Assembly: GCA_031279015.1 (NCBI GenBank)
Contig: JAITJI010000072.1
Location: forward strand, 1-39,604
Length of the DNA stretch: 39,604 nt
Source of the DNA: Spirochaetaceae bacterium
GTDB taxonomy: Bacteria; Spirochaetota; Spirochaetia; Treponematales; Breznakiellaceae
Direction: 5' to 3'
In this document: positions 11,488 through 19,681 of the stretch, in pieces
Position numbering within the stretch: the stretch's first letter is position 1
Layout of the letters: every line of letters begins with the position of its first letter
Program-made: the position numbers and the translations under genes
The notes under the pieces: generated by a model
The model's database searches: none
What the model saw: only the letters and a program-made list of their open reading frames with translations
Told to the model about the DNA's origin: nothing

Positions 11488-13452
11488 CTATTTCTGACTT
11501 ATTCTGAGGGTATAATCGGTTTCCCAGAAACCGTCCGGTTCCAGGACGATCCGGTTTACCAGCATGATGCAGGTAGACTGATACCTATTGGCTATCTGAT
11601 CGTTCATGCGGCAGGGAAGCCACAGGGGGTACAGCCATAGATCAAAGGCCCGGCCAGAATGCAGGGCGATGGTTACCTCGTTTTTGATATCCCGGAATTC
11701 AATATTCCCCACCTCTAAAAGTTCCTCTGCCCCGTCCACCGGCTTTAGAAGAACCGGCTCTTTGGCGCCGGAGCAGAAGCCGGATATCTGCTGGTAGGAA
11801 TCCCCCTCTCCGGGAAAGGCAAGATCGATCCGGGGAATAAAACAAAACCGTTCCGTCTCCTCTCCGTGGTTTATCAACCGGTACCGGACCGTAAGGGTAT
11901 CCTTTTTCAGTTGATATTTTTTTTCAATTTCCACAAGCCCAAAGGGCAGTTCCGGCCTGGGGGGAAGCCGGAAGCAGAGTTTCCCGTGAACCCGGTCCAG
12001 ATCCAGGACTTCGTACTGCTCTATCCCGCAACAACGTCCGGCAGGGTCCTCATAAAAACTGCCGGCGGCGGATTCTTTGGCAAGCTCCTGAATAGCACTG
12101 TCAAAGGGGGAGAGAAAATCCACAAAGGCAGTTCTACGGATATTCTCCACGGAGAAAGCATCCCCAGGGCCGGACCGGCGGGGGGCCATGGTATCCAGAT
12201 AATTCCAGGTTTTGGGGAGGTAGTCCAGTTCAAAAATACTGGCCCCCTGGCTTTTAATGTAACAATTGATGTGAACATCCTGAAAGAGATACTCCCATTC
12301 CCCGTCAAGGTCAAAGTCAAAGACCAAGAGGGAGGGGACAAAGGCTCCCTTTTCCCGGGTGATCCGTTCGGCAACCAGAAGAGCCCGGTATACGGCATTC
12401 CGGGTGGTATTACGGTAAATACCGCCGTATTGGGTTTGGCAAAACACATCGTAACCCTGGGCCTTCCAGAGTTCTTCCCGGGCGGTACGTTTGCGGGACT
12501 TATCCCCCCGAAGCTGGTTGATAAGCACATTAATGAACATCATCTTGGAGTAGATGCCATTGGCTTCAGGGTAGTTGATGAGGAACTGCCGGGGACTGCC
12601 CGCCTCGGTCCATCCGGCGGTTTCTCTCTCCCGGTTTTGGAAACTGAATTCCCCTTCCAAAGAATCGGAAAAAAAGGCCTTTTTGAGCCCCCGGAGCGTT
12701 TTGTACAGCTTCCCCGGGGTGGTAAATTCTACAAAGGAATCACAGCGGGCAAGGTCTTCAAAGAATGCCTGAATCTCTTCATCCGTGACGGATTTTTTGC
12801 TCCCCAATGCCAGGTCCGGAAACACCGAAATGATCCGTCTTCTCCCTTCGTCCGCCAGTTTTTTCAGAATCAGGGAGGGCTTTTCCCGGAAAAAATCGGC
12901 GGCGCAGCGATTTGAGAAAGGGAAAATAGTTATCAACTTCCCCTGATCCTCGCTGATACAGGGGGCATAAAGATCCGGCCCGGACAAACCCGCCCGCAGA
13001 AACTGCTCCTCACTGAGAAAGGTGTACCCCATACCACAGGCGTTCAAAACCCCCAGCAGATTCTGTTCCCAGGCAAGGGCGGACAGCCAGCAACCCTGAG
13101 GGCGTTTCCCAAACTCCCTGCGGAGGTAGGTGGTAAGCATTTCAATCTGGCCTATCTTGTCCGGCAGGGGCAAGAGGGGCAGCAGGGGCTCATAAAAACC
13201 ACCCCCCAGCAATTCCACCTGTTTCCGGGCAACCAGATCCTTCATGAGCATAAAAAATTCGGGATGGATTTTTTCTATCCGCTGGAGTAAAACCCCGGAA
13301 TAATGCAAAACCGCCTGAATCGCAGGGTATTTATTCAAATTGACAACAAAAGGTTTCAGCTTTTTTGTATATATCCATTCCAATTCATCATCCCCGGTTC
13401 CCACGGGGACATGATTGTAAGAACCAATAATTAATTTTAGAGGAAATTCCAT
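11488..13452 (-). CDS. GH57-family (alpha-amylase/4-alpha-glucanotransferase-like) protein, nucleophile missing
   Basis: A 654-residue protein, the length of Thermococcus 4-alpha-glucanotransferase (about 659), with the same plan: an N-terminal glycoside hydrolase family 57 barrel (motif NHVPVG at 13-18, usually HNHQPVG), then helical and C-terminal beta domains. Conserved region 3, normally WLTER-VW, reads WLSALAW at 122-128, so the nucleophile glutamate (E123 in the Thermococcus enzyme) is alanine A125. A DGEWEYL segment corresponds to region 4, where the acid/base aspartate may be retained. GH57-like proteins lacking catalytic residues are known; this one may bind glucan, act in regulation, or use a different residue such as E129. 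It follows rnfA on the same strand but a terminator-like hairpin stands between. Confidence 0.8.
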   Translation of the reverse strand: MEFPLKLIIGSYNHVPVGTGDDELEWIYTKKLKPFVVNLNKYPAIQAVLHYSGVLLQRIEKIHPEFFMLMKDLVARKQVELLGGGFYEPLLPLLPLPDKIGQIEMLTTYLRREFGKRPQGCWLSALAWEQNLLGVLNACGMGYTFLSEEQFLRAGLSGPDLYAPCISEDQGKLITIFPFSNRCAADFFREKPSLILKKLADEGRRRIISVFPDLALGSKKSVTDEEIQAFFEDLARCDSFVEFTTPGKLYKTLRGLKKAFFSDSLEGEFSFQNRERETAGWTEAGSPRQFLINYPEANGIYSKMMFINVLINQLRGDKSRKRTAREELWKAQGYDVFCQTQYGGIYRNTTRNAVYRALLVAERITREKGAFVPSLLVFDFDLDGEWEYLFQDVHINCYIKSQGASIFELDYLPKTWNYLDTMAPRRSGPGDAFSVENIRRTAFVDFLSPFDSAIQELAKESAAGSFYEDPAGRCCGIEQYEVLDLDRVHGKLCFRLPPRPELPFGLVEIEKKYQLKKDTLTVRYRLINHGEETERFCFIPRIDLAFPGEGDSYQQISGFCSGAKEPVLLKPVDGAEELLEVGNIEFRDIKNEVTIALHSGRAFDLWLYPLWLPCRMNDQIANRYQSTCIMLVNRIVLEPDGFWETDYTLRISQK

Positions 13453-13559: not shown

Positions 13560-14141
13560 CTATACACCCAAAACCCGCAGCAAGATGACCGCCACGGATG
13601 AGGATATGAGGGAAAGCAAACCCATGGAGACAAACAGCAGGGGCATACCCCGCAGTATAGGGGGAATCGTTTCTATGGAAGAACGCCTGTAGATCGCGTT
13701 CAAAATGCGGGCGGCGGCGAAACTGCCCAGGGAAAACCCAAGGGAGAGAACTACCGCCCCGGCAAAAGAGCCGGCCAGGCGCATGGTGAGGAAGAAGGCC
13801 GCAATGGCAAGTCCGTCATGGACGCTCTTACCGGAGGTTTCCGGCCTATCCTGCCCGGGGAGAACAAGATATTTCGCCGCCTTTTCAAAACCCTGCCGAA
13901 CCGCTACAATGAGGGGAAAGACCAGAAAATATTCAAAAAACCCCAGGGAAAGGGGACTAAGGATATATATAAAAAACAGCCAGAGCAGGAGTACCGTCAC
14001 AAAAAGAAGGAACCACTGGAAAAGGGTATACCGTACCGGTCTTTGGTCTTCGGCTTCAAAATTTTGGATTCCCAGACCAAATTGCAGGAGGGGATTAAGG
14101 GAAAGACCTGAAAAGATCGCCAGAATCGCCAGTGCGCTCAT
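13560..14141 (-). CDS. rnfA: RnfA-like electron transport complex subunit, without cysteines
   Basis: A 193-residue polytopic membrane protein with about six hydrophobic segments, the size of RnfA/NqrE. In that family a cysteine in LGxCPF (near residue 25) and one in PLIxxNC help bind an intramembrane iron-sulfur cluster with RnfE. Here the sites read LGIQNF (Q26) and PLIVAVR (R82), and the protein has no cysteine anywhere. The C-terminal half, including the FSLGSFAAARI segment, still fits the family. The ATG overlaps the rnfE stop (ATGA), so it is the last gene of the operon. The symbol rests on position and fold; normal redox function is doubtful. Confidence 0.75.
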   Translation of the reverse strand: MSALAILAIFSGLSLNPLLQFGLGIQNFEAEDQRPVRYTLFQWFLLFVTVLLLWLFFIYILSPLSLGFFEYFLVFPLIVAVRQGFEKAAKYLVLPGQDRPETSGKSVHDGLAIAAFFLTMRLAGSFAGAVVLSLGFSLGSFAAARILNAIYRRSSIETIPPILRGMPLLFVSMGLLSLISSSVAVILLRVLGV

Positions 14142-14773
14142 AGGTTTCCCTCCGTATGGATATAACGGCTTCTAAAACGACGGAAGAGGGCAATGCCGTA
14201 GCCCAAAAGCAGTAATGCCCCGGCGGATCCGCTGATTATCCGTACCGGGGAAAACAATTCACCGGATCCGCTAAACAGCTCGATTATACCCCGTAGACCC
14301 CCGGGCAGGGAAAGGGAACCGTAACCCAGGGGTTCCCGAATCAGGGCCAGGGCGAGGATGAGCCCCCCCAGGGTCAGGGCCTCAAACACCACCCGCAACA
14401 CCCCTTCATCAGGGGCCAGGCCCTTCACCCGGTCAACGACTTCGGAGCTGATACAGGACACCGGCGCCAGGGCGATAATGAGGGCGGTTTCGATGGCGAG
14501 GAAGGGACTGGTCAGGGTCAATACCAGGAGATACAAACTGCTGAACAGGGCCGATAAAAACACGACGATCAGATTCTTTCCCTTTTTGGGGAAAAAGGGC
14601 CCGGCAAAACAGCAGACCAGGGCAGTCAATCCGTAGACCCACACCAGGACGCCCAGGGCGATGAAGGCAAAGGCGGTCCGGCTTGAGGCCATTACCAATA
14701 AACCCGCGCTTGTAAGGGTCGATAGGGGGGCGTAGGAACCCCAAAACAAATGGTTTTGATACCGCTGCATCAT
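14138..14773 (-). CDS. rnfE: RnfE/NqrD-like electron transport complex subunit
   Basis: A 211-residue membrane protein with about six helices, matching RnfE in size and place. The first ligand motif of the family (LGLCPxLA) is replaced by WGSYAPLS around residues 11-18, with no cysteine. Cysteines remain at 54, 55 and 107; C107 (APVSCISSE) lies near where the second ligand is expected, but the flanking residues do not match PLIxxNC. LTLGGLILALALIREPLGYGSL in the second half resembles the conserved RExLGxGS region of the family. The ATG overlaps the rnfG stop; two successive ATG codons are present and the first is used here. Confidence 0.75.
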   Translation of the reverse strand: MMQRYQNHLFWGSYAPLSTLTSAGLLVMASSRTAFAFIALGVLVWVYGLTALVCCFAGPFFPKKGKNLIVVFLSALFSSLYLLVLTLTSPFLAIETALIIALAPVSCISSEVVDRVKGLAPDEGVLRVVFEALTLGGLILALALIREPLGYGSLSLPGGLRGIIELFSGSGELFSPVRIISGSAGALLLLGYGIALFRRFRSRYIHTEGNL

Positions 14774-15297
14774 TGGATCCTGCCTTGAGAAATGGCGGTC
14801 ATGGCGCTGCGGAGCACCGTATTACCGGCTTCGATACGCCGGGTATAGATCCGCAGAGTCTCCGGGGGCAGCCGGTCCAGGACCTTTGCCGAGTGATTGC
14901 TCAGGGGTACAAGGGCATTGACCGCCCCCCCGGGGGAAACAACTGCAAAAAACGAGGCGGGGATCCCGTCGAACATTATAGGGAAAACCAGACCCCAGTC
15001 TTCGGAGTTGGCCAGGGTAAACCAGCTGCCTAACCGGGTAGCCCTACCGGGCATCTGCCAGGGAAGAATCGGGGCCTCCAGGCGCAGGGACAGCCCGGAA
15101 GTCGTCAGCACTCTGTTTACCGAATTTAGGAGAATCCTCCCCCGAATCGGCTGGGTAAAGAACCAGGACAGGCTCCCCAGAAGGAGTATAACCGCTATCC
15201 AGGCGGCGAAGATCCCCATATTCCGGAAATTCCCCGGCCTTCCCTCTTCCGGTCCTGTCCCGGGGGATTTCACCGGCAGGACATGTTCCCGGTTCAC
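14770..15297 (-). CDS. rnfG: RnfG-like subunit with a degenerate flavinylation motif
   Basis: A 175-residue protein with one membrane helix (about 28-48) followed by an extracytoplasmic domain, as in RnfG/NqrC. RnfG normally carries FMN on the last threonine of SGAT near its C-terminus, attached by ApbE. The matching place reads A157-G158-N159-T160 in IEAGNTVLRSAM: the threonine is kept but S, A and the upstream D of the consensus are lost. Covalent flavin attachment is therefore uncertain. The protein is shorter than usual (about 200). The start codon is GTG, overlapping the rnfD stop as GTGA. Assignment depends on gene order and topology. Confidence 0.65.
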   Translation of the reverse strand: MNREHVLPVKSPGTGPEEGRPGNFRNMGIFAAWIAVILLLGSLSWFFTQPIRGRILLNSVNRVLTTSGLSLRLEAPILPWQMPGRATRLGSWFTLANSEDWGLVFPIMFDGIPASFFAVVSPGGAVNALVPLSNHSAKVLDRLPPETLRIYTRRIEAGNTVLRSAMTAISQGRIQ

Positions 15298-16391
15298 GGA
15301 TTCCTCCTTGTTTCAACGGGCCAATACCGGTACAGTTTTTGGCGCTCAAACTCCCGGACAGCGGGGGTCAGGGCGTTGAAGAGAACAACGGCAAAAAAGG
15401 CGCCGTAGGGTTCACCCCCGGGATACCGGAAGACAAAGGCAAATATCCCCGTCAGGCAGGCGAAGATCCCCGAAGCGATTCCCGATTTTGGGCCTGTGGC
15501 CGGATCGGACGCCAGGAGGAATGCCGCCGGGATAATCCCGCCGGAAAAGAGGGCAAAGAGGATATCCCCCTGTCCCAGGCTTCCCCCCAAGGGCAGGGCG
15601 CCAAAGAACCGCACCGCCAGGCTGTAACAGACAAGGAATGCCAGGGGAACCCGCATACGGCTTACCCGGAAAGCGATAATGAGGATGGTCCCCAGGAGCA
15701 GAGCCAGAAGCCCCCGGTCTGCGATAATACCCGGTTCACGGAACAACAGGAGATCAATATACCCGACGGGTAATTCGGAATTGGTAAATGCAAAAATCGT
15801 GTCGTTCAAAAAGGCGGTAAAGCCGGCAACCCCGGAAAGAACCGCTGATGGTACGGAATTGGCCCGCAGTATCTCCAGGGGAGAAACCGGAGGCCCCGTT
15901 AGTCCCCGGCCAAGGCTGCCGTAAAACAGGGCCAGGGGGGAACCTTCCAGCGCCCGCTCAAAGGCATCGGGCCATGAAAAACGGACAAAGAGCCAGCCCC
16001 CCAGGGCGGTATTCAACCAGTTTGATCCCAGGCCGCCAAAGCTGTGTTTCACCACGATCATGGCAAAGAGGGCGCCTATGAAGGCCTGGAAGGGGCCTAA
16101 GGTGTTGGGAAGCAGCAGCGCAAAGATCAGGGCCGAGGCAACAGCGCTCCCATCCCACAGAGTCCGGACTCTGCACTTGCGGTTGCAGATCCATTCCACC
16201 GCCACAGCGGCAAGGACTGCGGCAAGGGCAAGCTGCAGGGAAACAAAAGAATCCGTCAGAGAGGATTGAAGTACAGCAAGACCCGCACAGAAACTGACCA
16301 GACACATCCGTTCGACGGTTGACCGGGAGAGGTTTACCTGGGGCCGCTGAAACGGGGCCCGCACTGACAAAGCAGCATCCCTGTTCAGCAT
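15294..16391 (-). CDS. rnfD: RnfD-like electron transport complex subunit
   Basis: A 365-residue polytopic protein of the RnfD/NqrB family. Clear family blocks are LGSNWLNTALGGWLFVRFSWP (around 121-141) and GGIIPAAFLLASDPATGPKS in the C-terminal third, followed by GIFAFVFRYPGGEPYG and LFNALTPAV. In normal RnfD, FMN is attached to the threonine of SGATPL. The corresponding segment here is TGPPVSPLEIL (165-175): PL is preceded by serine S170 but SGAT itself is gone. The ATG is one base after the rnfC stop. The fold assignment is firm; the loss of the canonical flavin site is seen directly by motif. Confidence 0.85.
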   Translation of the reverse strand: MLNRDAALSVRAPFQRPQVNLSRSTVERMCLVSFCAGLAVLQSSLTDSFVSLQLALAAVLAAVAVEWICNRKCRVRTLWDGSAVASALIFALLLPNTLGPFQAFIGALFAMIVVKHSFGGLGSNWLNTALGGWLFVRFSWPDAFERALEGSPLALFYGSLGRGLTGPPVSPLEILRANSVPSAVLSGVAGFTAFLNDTIFAFTNSELPVGYIDLLLFREPGIIADRGLLALLLGTILIIAFRVSRMRVPLAFLVCYSLAVRFFGALPLGGSLGQGDILFALFSGGIIPAAFLLASDPATGPKSGIASGIFACLTGIFAFVFRYPGGEPYGAFFAVVLFNALTPAVREFERQKLYRYWPVETRRNP

Positions 16392-16392
16392 A

Positions 16393-17697
16393 TTAATTCC
16401 CCCTCAGGGCGGCATCCGCTATGGTGGTGCTCAGGGGAAGCCGGGATGGACACACCACCTCGCAACAGCCGCAACCGTGACATTCCGCCGCCAGGGTTGC
16501 CAGAGTCTCCCGGTTCCGGCGGATCTGGGCGATCTTGAAGAGTTCCTCCGGGTCCAGACCCACGGGGCAGACGCTCCGGCATTCCCCGCAGCCGATACAT
16601 CTCCGGGCAAAGGTTCCTCCCAGCCGGGATTCCGGAATGGCGAATACTGCATAACTTGTTTTTATTATGGGCTCATCAAGATCCGCCACTGCCCTTCCAA
16701 GGATCGGTGAACCGGAGGCTATCCGCTTTGGCTTATCCACAAAACCGCCGCATTCGGCAAATATTTCACCGATCCGGGTACCGATCCGTACCTTCATCAC
16801 CTGGGGATTCTTGACCGCCGCCCCGCCAACCGCTACATACCGGTCAAGGATAGGTTTCTTCAACTTTACCGCATCATGAACGGCCGCCAGAGTAGCCGGT
16901 CCCAGGATGAGCAGGGAGCCCAGGGGGATCTCCTCCCTTTTTTCGTAGAGCCGCAGAACCAGTTCCAGCTCCCGCCTGTTCCGTTGGGGATACCGGGAAC
17001 CGACCAGAATCAGGGAAGAGGAAACATCCCAGGATTCCGCCTCTGCCAGAAGCGAAGTCCCCAATGCCTGCTCTGACCGGGAGACCGCAAAAACAATGCG
17101 GCCAATCCGTCCCGCCCGGGCAAGGATGACGCTCCCCTCCACCACAGCCTTGAGCCGTTCCCGGCAGAGCACATAATCCGCGGCAAGCCAGGGATCGTCA
17201 AAGACACAACGGACCACCAGGGTCAGAGGTTCCCGGGCGGAATGAAGACCCGAGAGCATGTCCGATACAGGATATCCCGTTCCCTCCATCTCCACGATGC
17301 CGTATTCAGAGATAAGCCGTTGCAACTCAAAGGGAGAAAGCCCCTGCCAGGAGAATACCTCCTCCGGTTTCCCCAGCTTTTCAAAGGCCCCCTCAAGCCG
17401 AATCACCAAGGCATCGCTGATTTGCCCATCCGTTGTCTTTCGGGATACCATCCGGATTACCTTGCCCGGAACAGTGGCATGGATATTCGTAGACCCAAAA
17501 CCCTGCCCCCGGCCGATAAGCATACCCTCTTTTACGTAATCACCCACGGAAACAATGGGATACGCCCGGCTTCCGGTGTGCTGAACCAGGGGTATCACCG
17601 AAAGGCCGGGAAGAAAGGCGATCACACTTGAATCTTTTGCCGGAACCGTGGAATCCTCAAAATAAATCCCTCCCCGGGGGAATGAATATACTTTCAT
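16393..17697 (-). CDS. rnfC: RnfC-like electron transport complex subunit with two 4Fe-4S motifs
   Basis: A 434-residue peripheral subunit. Order: N-terminal barrel-sandwich domain (PIVSVGDYVKEGMLIG, ATVPGKVI), a Rossmann-like domain, a SLBB-like segment, and a C-terminal ferredoxin domain with complete motifs C367-C370-C373-C377P and C406-C409-C412-C416P. Standard RnfC has GLGGAGFP and NGAECEPYL motifs for FMN and NADH. Here they are EMEGTGYP (136-143) and RCVFDDPWL (163-171), so flavin/NADH binding is probably altered or lost while cluster binding is intact. It overlaps the preceding membrane protein gene by ATGA. Confidence 0.88.
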   Translation of the reverse strand: MKVYSFPRGGIYFEDSTVPAKDSSVIAFLPGLSVIPLVQHTGSRAYPIVSVGDYVKEGMLIGRGQGFGSTNIHATVPGKVIRMVSRKTTDGQISDALVIRLEGAFEKLGKPEEVFSWQGLSPFELQRLISEYGIVEMEGTGYPVSDMLSGLHSAREPLTLVVRCVFDDPWLAADYVLCRERLKAVVEGSVILARAGRIGRIVFAVSRSEQALGTSLLAEAESWDVSSSLILVGSRYPQRNRRELELVLRLYEKREEIPLGSLLILGPATLAAVHDAVKLKKPILDRYVAVGGAAVKNPQVMKVRIGTRIGEIFAECGGFVDKPKRIASGSPILGRAVADLDEPIIKTSYAVFAIPESRLGGTFARRCIGCGECRSVCPVGLDPEELFKIAQIRRNRETLATLAAECHGCGCCEVVCPSRLPLSTTIADAALRGN

Positions 17698-19181
17698 GCT
17701 GCAACCTGTTTATCAGTATACACTAAAAGGGCGTCCTTTTTCCTGTAGGATCTACCGGTACCAAAGAGGGACAACAAACCCGGAATAAAAATGATAAACA
17801 CCGGCATCAGATCCCAAACCCCCCGGTCCGGTACAGGCCGGAGGACCTCACTGCCAAGAAAAATCACAAGATCCTCCAGCGGAAAGGGCGGAAAGTCCCC
17901 TGTCTCCGGATACTCCTCCGCAAGGGGAATACTCCCGGAGATAAGGCCATCAGCCCCCAGGGTATAATGGAGGTAGGGGTAAGACCCCGTCCCCTCCCCC
18001 GGGAGCAGCTCCGCCGGCCCGGCGCCCAGGGGACGCAGGGAAAAGAAGGCCTGAAAAACCGCATGGCGGTAGTAGTCTCCGGCGGAGGGGAGGAACAAAT
18101 CCGTCCCCCTGCCATCGGTATCCCGGAAATCACTCCTGAACGGCAGCGAAGACCCCAGGGAAACCAGGGAAGCCAGGGCAAAGGGAAGGACGATCCGGGG
18201 GAATCGGGAGAGGCGCAGTGAAGGCTCCCGGATATCCACCGGCAAAAAGATGATGTGATCCCGAATCTTCCCCCGGTTTGCCTCGGTTTGGAGGGATGTA
18301 CAGAGGACGCAAAAAAAAGAGACCAGCGCCGCCAGGGCTATCAGAACCGGTATTTCCCCGGCAAAACAGATGAGCCCGTAGACCAGGAGGAACACAGCCG
18401 CCAGGACCCAGGAGATCCGGTAGCTTCCCCATTGAAATCCCCCGGTCCGGGAGGAAAAGGACTGCATCCTGTAACGGCGGGAAATAAAAAACTCCCTCAA
18501 AGGGGCAAGGGTTACGCCGAAGAGTCCGAAAAACGCCCCCGACAGGGCAAAACCCGCCGGACCGTTCAGGGCAAAGGGGGCCAGAAAGGGCAGCAGCGAG
18601 AGGGCCGGCAAAAAGGCCCTTCCGGACTTTTCCGGACGAAAGGCGGAGAGGATCAGGGTTCCCAGGGACGCGCATCCAAAGAGAATCAAATACCACAGGA
18701 CAGGCTGCGGGGCCCGGGGCAATACCAGAGAGTAAGAGATCTCCCCCAGTGACAGGGCAACTTTTTTTTGCAGAACCCGGTAACCGTCATAGTATATGAG
18801 GGGTCCCTTTGCAGCAGACAGGGGGATATAAAAAAAACGCCGCCCTTCCCGGACAAAAAAATCGTGAAGCTGTTCCGCATAACCATCATTCCGGGGATCA
18901 AAGACCTCAACCCGGTTCCGAAATTCCGGAAGGGGGATCCGTTCCAGGGTTCCAAAATCATCTAAAAACACCCACTGGGAGGATTCAGAGATGAGTCCCC
19001 CAATGCCGTTCCGGTTCAGGGCCTCCACAACAGGCCCTTCGGCAACGGTTTCATCCAGGGAGAGGATCCCATAGCCTCCGCCGGCCCTATGGGGAATGAA
19101 GGCCTTCGTATAAACCAGGGACAGGAGGCCGAAAAGCAGGGGGATCAATAGACATGCCGCAAGGCTTTTACGCGTTAACAT
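17694..19181 (-). CDS. Polytopic membrane protein of unknown function, coupled to rnfC
   Basis: A 495-residue protein I do not recognise. Residues ~7-28 form a membrane anchor or signal segment, then comes a ~130-residue extracytoplasmic stretch (about 30-155). About eight hydrophobic helices follow between 160 and 355, with short loops. A second soluble stretch (about 355-460) contains DLFLPSAGDYYRHAVFQAFF, and a final helix lies near 462-478. There is no cofactor motif or cysteine cluster. It is joined to rnfC by an ATGA overlap and lies 11 bp after the DUF212 gene, so it is an integral part of the Rnf operon. It may be an accessory or replacement subunit; that is inference from position only. 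Confidence 0.75.
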   Translation of the reverse strand: MLTRKSLAACLLIPLLFGLLSLVYTKAFIPHRAGGGYGILSLDETVAEGPVVEALNRNGIGGLISESSQWVFLDDFGTLERIPLPEFRNRVEVFDPRNDGYAEQLHDFFVREGRRFFYIPLSAAKGPLIYYDGYRVLQKKVALSLGEISYSLVLPRAPQPVLWYLILFGCASLGTLILSAFRPEKSGRAFLPALSLLPFLAPFALNGPAGFALSGAFFGLFGVTLAPLREFFISRRYRMQSFSSRTGGFQWGSYRISWVLAAVFLLVYGLICFAGEIPVLIALAALVSFFCVLCTSLQTEANRGKIRDHIIFLPVDIREPSLRLSRFPRIVLPFALASLVSLGSSLPFRSDFRDTDGRGTDLFLPSAGDYYRHAVFQAFFSLRPLGAGPAELLPGEGTGSYPYLHYTLGADGLISGSIPLAEEYPETGDFPPFPLEDLVIFLGSEVLRPVPDRGVWDLMPVFIIFIPGLLSLFGTGRSYRKKDALLVYTDKQVAA

Positions 19182-19192
19182 GGGAAGGGATC

Positions 19193-19681
19193 CTATAAAA
19201 ACGCGTAAGCGGCGGCTATGAAAATACCCAACAGCGCCCCCATGACCACTTCCAGGGGAGCGTGTCCGTGTACTTCTTTAATCGAATGAAATTCTATATT
19301 CGATTTTTCCGCAAGCTGCCGGCCCAGCATATTAATGATTCTGGCCTGAATACCCACGGAACGACGGACTCCCATGGCATCCCTCATGACAATAAGGGCG
19401 ATGAAAAAGGATACAACAAAAAGATTGGATTTAACTCCCTCCTGAACCGCCACCTGGGTAGTCATGGAAGAGACCAGAGCCGCATGACTGGAAGGCATGC
19501 CGCCGGTACGCCATGCAATGGTTTCCAGAATTTCCCTGCCTGTTCTTCGATGTCCTCTGAGCAATACAATAACCGCCTTTAGAAGCTGCGCAAGCAGCCA
19601 GCTTAACATAGAAGATAAAAAAATCGGGTTTTCAATAAAGGCCCTTACCGATTCCACCCGCATAACTATGAGAAAAGACAT
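19193..19681 (-). CDS. Divergent PAP2 family (DUF212) membrane protein
   Basis: A 162-residue protein with four or five hydrophobic segments. WRTGGMPSSHAALVSSMTTQV (57-77) is the conserved PSSHA motif, and KEVHGHAPLEVVMGALLG near the C-terminus is the second family motif (GHTPxEVxxGxxLG); both belong to DUF212 (acid phosphatase/vanadium haloperoxidase-related). In PAP2 enzymes these motifs hold the catalytic histidines, so a membrane phosphatase acting on a lipid phosphate is possible. It is the first gene of the operon leading to rnfA. The start at 19681 lacks a good ribosome binding site; the in-frame ATG at 19663 is an alternative. Confidence 0.85.
   Translation of the reverse strand: MSFLIVMRVESVRAFIENPIFLSSMLSWLLAQLLKAVIVLLRGHRRTGREILETIAWRTGGMPSSHAALVSSMTTQVAVQEGVKSNLFVVSFFIALIVMRDAMGVRRSVGIQARIINMLGRQLAEKSNIEFHSIKEVHGHAPLEVVMGALLGIFIAAAYAFL

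Follow-up and report, generated by a model that had tools for sequence, protein, structure and literature searches.

An ancient spirochaetal rnf locus, probably stripped in steps of its electron-transfer sites and kept for another job

The Rnf-like operon on a 39,604-nucleotide contig of a Spirochaetaceae bacterium (JAITJI010000072.1, assembly GCA_031279015.1; the entire contig is hereafter the window) raises the question of what such a complex can do without RnfB, the subunit that it lacks. A sequence-only reading of this DNA had described a tightly packed rnfCDGEA row without rnfB, and the coordinates bear this out: the gene row holds no rnfB, and the interval from rnfA to the following GH57 gene is 107 bases. 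The same reading expected no standard ferredoxin:NAD (nicotinamide adenine dinucleotide) reaction from the complex, considered a loss of rnfB common to treponeme relatives, and allowed that the genome may lack RnfB altogether. The first expectation is supported, with RnfB and other electron-transfer parts gone, and the loss indeed recurs across the family of the window; the last suggestion fails. RnfB appears to be only one of several lost parts, and the loss of rnfB would not be the whole story. Taking these findings together, we consider it probable that the operon represents an ancient rnf locus of the spirochaetes at a late point in a step-by-step decay, that its complex supports neither ferredoxin:NAD electron transfer nor ion pumping driven by electrons along the known route, since RnfB, the [2Fe-2S] site of RnfA and RnfE, the RnfG flavin site and the flavin mononucleotide (FMN)/NAD site of RnfC are gone, and that it has been kept by selection for another job.

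A search of the genome with the RnfB FeS domain (PF04060) gave a match on contig C105, where rnfC, -D, -G, -E, -A and -B stand in a row with canonical motifs and an RnfB of 271 amino acids (aa). The check for an RnfB elsewhere thus found one, but as the closing gene of a separate, complete operon. The RnfA/RnfE domain (PF02508) matches only this C105 copy in the genome. The loss of RnfB is hence a property of the window operon and not of the organism, which has a separate complete Rnf available for the ferredoxin:NAD job. As a side observation, no ApbE flavin transferase (PF02424) was found in the whole genome G000, which has an intact Rnf and gives 13 matches to FMN_bind (PF04205); this assembly is 90% complete, and the ApbE gene may simply be missing from it.

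The extent of the loss becomes clear subunit by subunit. In the structure of the Clostridium tetanomorphum Rnf, the ligands of the [2Fe-2S] cluster are Cys25 and Cys113 of RnfA together with Cys26 and Cys109 of RnfE, and the paper on it states that these four do not vary across the Nqr/Rnf families (PMC9588780). The RnfA of the window has no cysteines and, therefore, the loss of its ligands is independent of any alignment; in RnfE, the alignment indicates that the first cluster cysteine is lost and a cysteine stands at the second position. The four-ligand state is thus Q-G-G-C (RnfA/RnfE), short of the four cysteines that the [2Fe-2S] cluster requires. An intact four-cysteine site was found in none of 20 sampled relatives of the same family, and it is present in all 16 intact loci of other orders. 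In the same structure, FMN is attached to Thr153 of RnfD and Thr164 of RnfG, and RnfC holds an FMN and two [4Fe-4S] clusters (PMC9588780). The RnfG of the window has neither the S/T-G-A-T/S (SGAT) flavinylation motif nor an FMN_bind match, and the motif is also gone in nearly all relatives. Its structural model (predicted local distance difference test, pLDDT, 88.8) has one transmembrane helix, a small beta domain and a long C-terminal helix; the best four matches in a fold search were RnfG chains, none of them significant.

In RnfC, a motif comparison finds GMGGAGFP changed to EMEGTGYP, GAECEPYL to CVFDDPWL, and YPQGGE to YPQRNR, and the canonical FMN/NAD site (GxGGxxFP, ECEPY, YPQG) is thus gone. 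All eight cysteines of the two [4Fe-4S] clusters are kept, as they are in the aligned order-wide set, and the new FDDPWL stretch is family-specific and invariant within the family. RnfD likewise retains its membrane core, recognized by PF03116, and the equivalents of GGLGxNxxN (Asn124) and Asp248, the residues around the riboflavin and the proposed Na+ site. Across the family, Asn124 is kept in 21/21 members and the Asp248 position is D in 17 and E in 4. The region around the FMN-bearing threonine of RnfD (Thr153) has been rewritten: the window has a serine at the aligned position, as do 16 of the 21 family members (other residues occur in five) and 7 of the 16 intact loci.

Comparison of the locus across the class points to how this state arose. 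The gene order DUF212-X-C-D-G-E-A-GH57, where X is a predicted membrane protein gene, recurs in all 20 genomes sampled from the same family (20 genera or species groups), except at contig ends and where X has been lost in a few; because of this recurrence, chance can be excluded. Nineteen of the 20 loci have no rnfB, as judged by a single-sequence RnfB profile and the rnfA-GH57 gap; the remaining one, L051, has a short remnant. In two of the nineteen, L037 and L052, no GH57 gene adjoins the row, which leaves the gap open-ended. An iterated RnfB profile was discarded, as it took in the ferredoxin domains of RnfC. The genomes that carry the locus include Gracilinema caldarium, Treponema putidum and many metagenome-assembled genomes titled Treponema sp. 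or Spirochaetaceae. We also took the locus from four other sampled families of the order of the window and from other orders of the class. In the latter, 16 loci have the complete RnfC site and all four cysteines, and 15 of these also have RnfB in the interval from rnfA to GH57. Within the order of the window, one genome has a near-intact locus (L060); in two families RnfB is mostly kept, the cysteines are sometimes kept, and the RnfC NAD motif is already lost; and in the T. pallidum family and that of the window the four-cysteine site is lost and RnfB is short or absent.

In a quick tree of RnfC plus RnfD (71 rows, motif columns removed, with support from the Shimodaira-Hasegawa-like approximate likelihood ratio test, SH-aLRT, only), the sequences of the locus group as a single lineage (100), separate from the canonical copy; on this tree a single change accounts for the loss of the NAD motif, and the loss of the four-cysteine site takes no fewer than four. 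L145 and L151, two loci of other orders that sit on long branches, are stripped as well, and where they belong in the tree is unsure. We interpret the window operon as belonging to a separate, ancient lineage, whose syntenic locus, DUF212-X-rnfCDGEA[B]-GH57, is seen across the class. In the order of the window, the decay seems to have begun with the RnfC NAD/FMN site and then taken the RnfA/RnfE [2Fe-2S] cysteines, the flavin site of RnfG and rnfB. At L136 (genome G398), rnfB was lost in another way: the four cysteines are intact, as is the NAD motif of RnfC, and no rnfB lies between rnfA and GH57; several other Rnf-Nqr matches occur in that genome.

Could the complex still work as an ordinary Rnf, a ferredoxin- or flavodoxin:NAD pump supplied with RnfB by the second operon or with electrons by flavodoxin? 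The complete RnfB elsewhere in the genome would permit this, and a T. denticola-like genome (G154) has its rnfB about 1.1 Mb from its rnfCDGEA. In that genome (L100, L103), the intact rnfCDGEA lies at about 2.52 Mb without an adjacent rnfB and a lone RnfB of 282 aa at about 1.42 Mb. However, a borrowed RnfB would have no electron acceptor in the window complex, because RnfA has no cysteine, RnfE offers at most one ligand, and both RnfC and RnfG have lost their motifs, for NAD/FMN and for flavin, respectively; we regard borrowing as highly improbable, and a role of the window complex as a ferredoxin:NAD pump of any kind as very unlikely. Most of the same-family genomes examined also carry an intact Rnf, and the stripped complex could accordingly be its accessory or regulator in the same cell, for example, by subunit swapping. 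Against both proposals stand nine genomes of the T. pallidum family (90 to 99% complete, T. pallidum included) in which the stripped RnfC lineage is present with no PF02508 RnfA/E; PF04060 is absent in five of the nine, and the other four have PF04060 matches in frames of 185 to 695 aa. Among these, the locus was read gene by gene for G159 (L095) and G246 (L071) only. Because these near-complete genomes keep the lineage without an intact RnfA/E, the stripped complex apparently has no need of an intact Rnf, and an accessory role is already as disfavored as borrowing. Genome G050 (same family, 94% complete) has no PF02508 match and one PF04060 match in a 473-aa frame, and it may also rely on the stripped complex alone.

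One site after another, and rnfB too, was lost along the lineage, X has gone in some genera, and some genomes lack the locus; a dying operon on its way to deletion would look like this. However, a stripped RnfC was found in an open frame in 91 of the 98 same-family genomes searched (most of the other seven are incomplete assemblies), the genes of the window operon are tightly packed, and the locus has been retained in the reduced 1.14-Mb genome of T. pallidum. For the closest pair of loci (L038/L042), the ratio of nonsynonymous to synonymous substitution rates (dN/dS) is 0.15 for C, 0.18 for D, 0.21 for E, 0.17 for A and 0.34 for G, against 0.16 for the neighboring GH57. These values suggest that C, D, G, E and A are under purifying selection and, with family-specific invariant residues such as FDDPWL, make a nonfunctional remnant quite improbable. 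A less remote alternative, which we still consider unlikely, is a remodeled electron-transfer complex that lost RnfB as did the Na+-translocating NADH:quinone oxidoreductase (NQR) and uses a different carrier, partner or cofactor, for example, with electrons passing between the RnfC clusters, the RnfD riboflavin and a further partner. NQR lends it a precedent, since its proposed origin is a duplicated rnf operon from which rnfB and the NAD/FMN sites of RnfC disappeared (PMC4014512); the RnfC clusters and Asn124/Asp248 of RnfD are kept, and FDDPWL could be a new site. Yet no NqrF-like gene lies between DUF212 and GH57 in the window locus, gene X is older than the loss and has no obvious cofactor motif, and NQR kept the membrane [2Fe-2S] cluster (PMC12174285) that the window complex did not, leaving the known transmembrane route missing.

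NQR is nevertheless the nearest precedent, and the differences are instructive: on the way to NQR, NqrF was acquired and the RnfC clusters disappeared, and the membrane [2Fe-2S] cluster and the flavins stayed, whereas the window presents the reverse pattern, with no NqrF and with an RnfC homolog that keeps its Fe-S cysteines, unlike the cofactor-free NqrA. With the Rnf complexes of known structure (7ZC6, 9ERI, 8AHX), the window shares the order C-D-G-E-A, clearly homologous RnfC and RnfD, the two RnfC [4Fe-4S] clusters and the riboflavin/Na+ residues of RnfD. It differs from them in the missing RnfB, four-cysteine site, RnfG flavin motif and RnfC FMN/NAD motifs, and in that A, E and G lie beyond Pfam detection: a Pfam search gave no match for these three frames, and NCBIfam profiles recognize them weakly or not at all as Rnf. 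Their putative assignment draws on gene order, relatives and fold. We would regard the complex as Rnf by descent and do not file it as a functional Rnf, because it lacks RnfB, the four cysteines, the FMN motif of RnfG and the RnfC FMN/NAD site, each of which is a defining feature.

What job, then, might selection on a stripped locus preserve? In an intact Rnf, 11.7 Å separate the riboflavin from the closer of the two RnfC clusters. RnfD has relatives among the urea and ammonium transporters (PMC12174285). One possibility is that RnfC brings its two [4Fe-4S] clusters to RnfD, on which it sits and which still has its riboflavin/Na+ residues, and that a redox change of the clusters, perhaps of the riboflavin too, opens or closes an ion or solute path in RnfD (or RnfA/E), with G, E and A as scaffold. 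Such a transporter would be redox-gated, not redox-driven, with no net electron transfer across the membrane. We put this mechanism forward tentatively, as possible rather than probable. The broader proposal that a former redox pump has repeatedly become an ion channel or transporter that senses redox state, with the RnfC clusters gating the path of RnfD or RnfA/E, is slightly more doubtful still.

Several points weigh against our interpretation of the locus as decayed and put to another use. The function is putative; a novel cofactor or partner protein could carry the electrons instead, and RnfD may still bear a covalent FMN, since serine occurs at the attachment position in intact loci too. 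The alignments of A and E are remote, the dN/dS values derive mainly from one close pair, and the quick tree, with SH-aLRT support only, includes three rows with very long branches. As for a gated path, the hydrophobic gate residues Leu240 and Phe244 of RnfD are changed in the window family, and members of the T. pallidum family often lack Asp248, which weakens the case for a conserved Na+ path. Both Rnf and NQR have been described with strictly conserved membrane cofactors (PMC9588780, PMC12174285). A widely conserved relative without these cofactors, yet selected, would imply that the scaffold is useful apart from electron transfer, and it could help separate ion conduction from redox chemistry.

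The genes of the locus are collected in Table 1. The sequence-only reading was right on the order C-D-G-E-A and placed the start of the row too far downstream: X overlaps rnfC by 4 bases, and DUF212 precedes X. Four-base overlaps likewise join rnfD to rnfG, rnfG to rnfE and rnfE to rnfA, and the gap between rnfC and rnfD is 1 base. The proposed terminator-like hairpin after rnfA is weak: a short palindrome (AACAGG-T-CCTGTT) and a T run are present, but a terminator scan did not call this stretch, which folds no better than shuffles (z 0.38). Nor is GH57 an accidental neighbor, for it follows the locus across the class, with rnfB between it and rnfA in relatives that keep rnfB; the conserved neighborhood revealed no mechanistic link between GH57 and the Rnf-like genes. 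Gene X is conserved at the locus across the class; a fold search gave only weak RND-type matches, none significant. As a replacement for RnfB, X was ruled out: it also precedes rnfC at the intact loci of other orders.

Table 1. Genes of the stripped rnf locus and its flanks in the window
Feature	Positions	Strand	Basis
DUF212 (divergent PAP2) gene; conserved upstream neighbor, 11 bases before X	19193-19681	-	PF02681 2e-41; synteny
Gene X, 495 aa; predicted membrane protein with periplasmic alpha/beta domain	17694-19181	-	model pLDDT 75; no family match
rnfC, RnfC-like subunit, 434 aa	16393-17697	-	RnfC_N 1.2e-16; TIGR01945 9.6e-71; PDB 7zc6_C 1.9e-50
rnfD, RnfD-like subunit, 365 aa	15294-16391	-	PF03116 6.7e-58; PDB 9eri_D, 7zc6_D
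rnfG, RnfG-like subunit, 175 aa	14770-15297	-	AlphaFold model pLDDT 88.8; fold matches RnfG, not significant
rnfE, RnfE-like membrane subunit, 211 aa	14138-14773	-	no Pfam match; alignment
rnfA, RnfA-like membrane subunit, 193 aa	13560-14141	-	TIGR01943 21.8 bits vs 229 cut-off; alignment
GH57 glycoside hydrolase; conserved downstream neighbor	11488-13452	-	PF03065 1.1e-27; synteny

The consequences matter most for Treponema pallidum. Genome G159 (1,139,633 bases) encodes an FMN transferase whose sequence exactly matches that of PDB 4IFU, which we take to be a T. pallidum protein, and on this basis we treat G159 as T. pallidum. Its sole RnfC-type locus is the stripped one, orthologous to that of the window, more diverged and with X lost; RnfB, the RnfA/E cysteines and the flavin motifs of both D and G are all missing from it, and searches with PF04060 and PF02508 found no match anywhere in the genome. 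In papers published between 2020 and 2025, the energy conservation of this organism includes a flavin-based Rnf, with tp0151 (rnfD) treated as part of an Rnf that oxidizes flavodoxin and builds an ion gradient (PMC11371664, PMC7512555, PMC11717252). The complex of these published models, a flavin-based Na+-translocating flavodoxin:NAD pump, is encoded by the very locus that is stripped here. In the literature covered, which does not extend to a 2015 mBio paper on treponemal flavinylation, we found no paper noting the stripped type of the T. pallidum Rnf. The sequence evidence argues against an energy-conserving Rnf role for this locus and makes that role doubtful. If the redox-sensing proposal is true, T. 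pallidum and several other treponemes would be without Rnf-type energy conservation, the stripped copy being their only “Rnf.”

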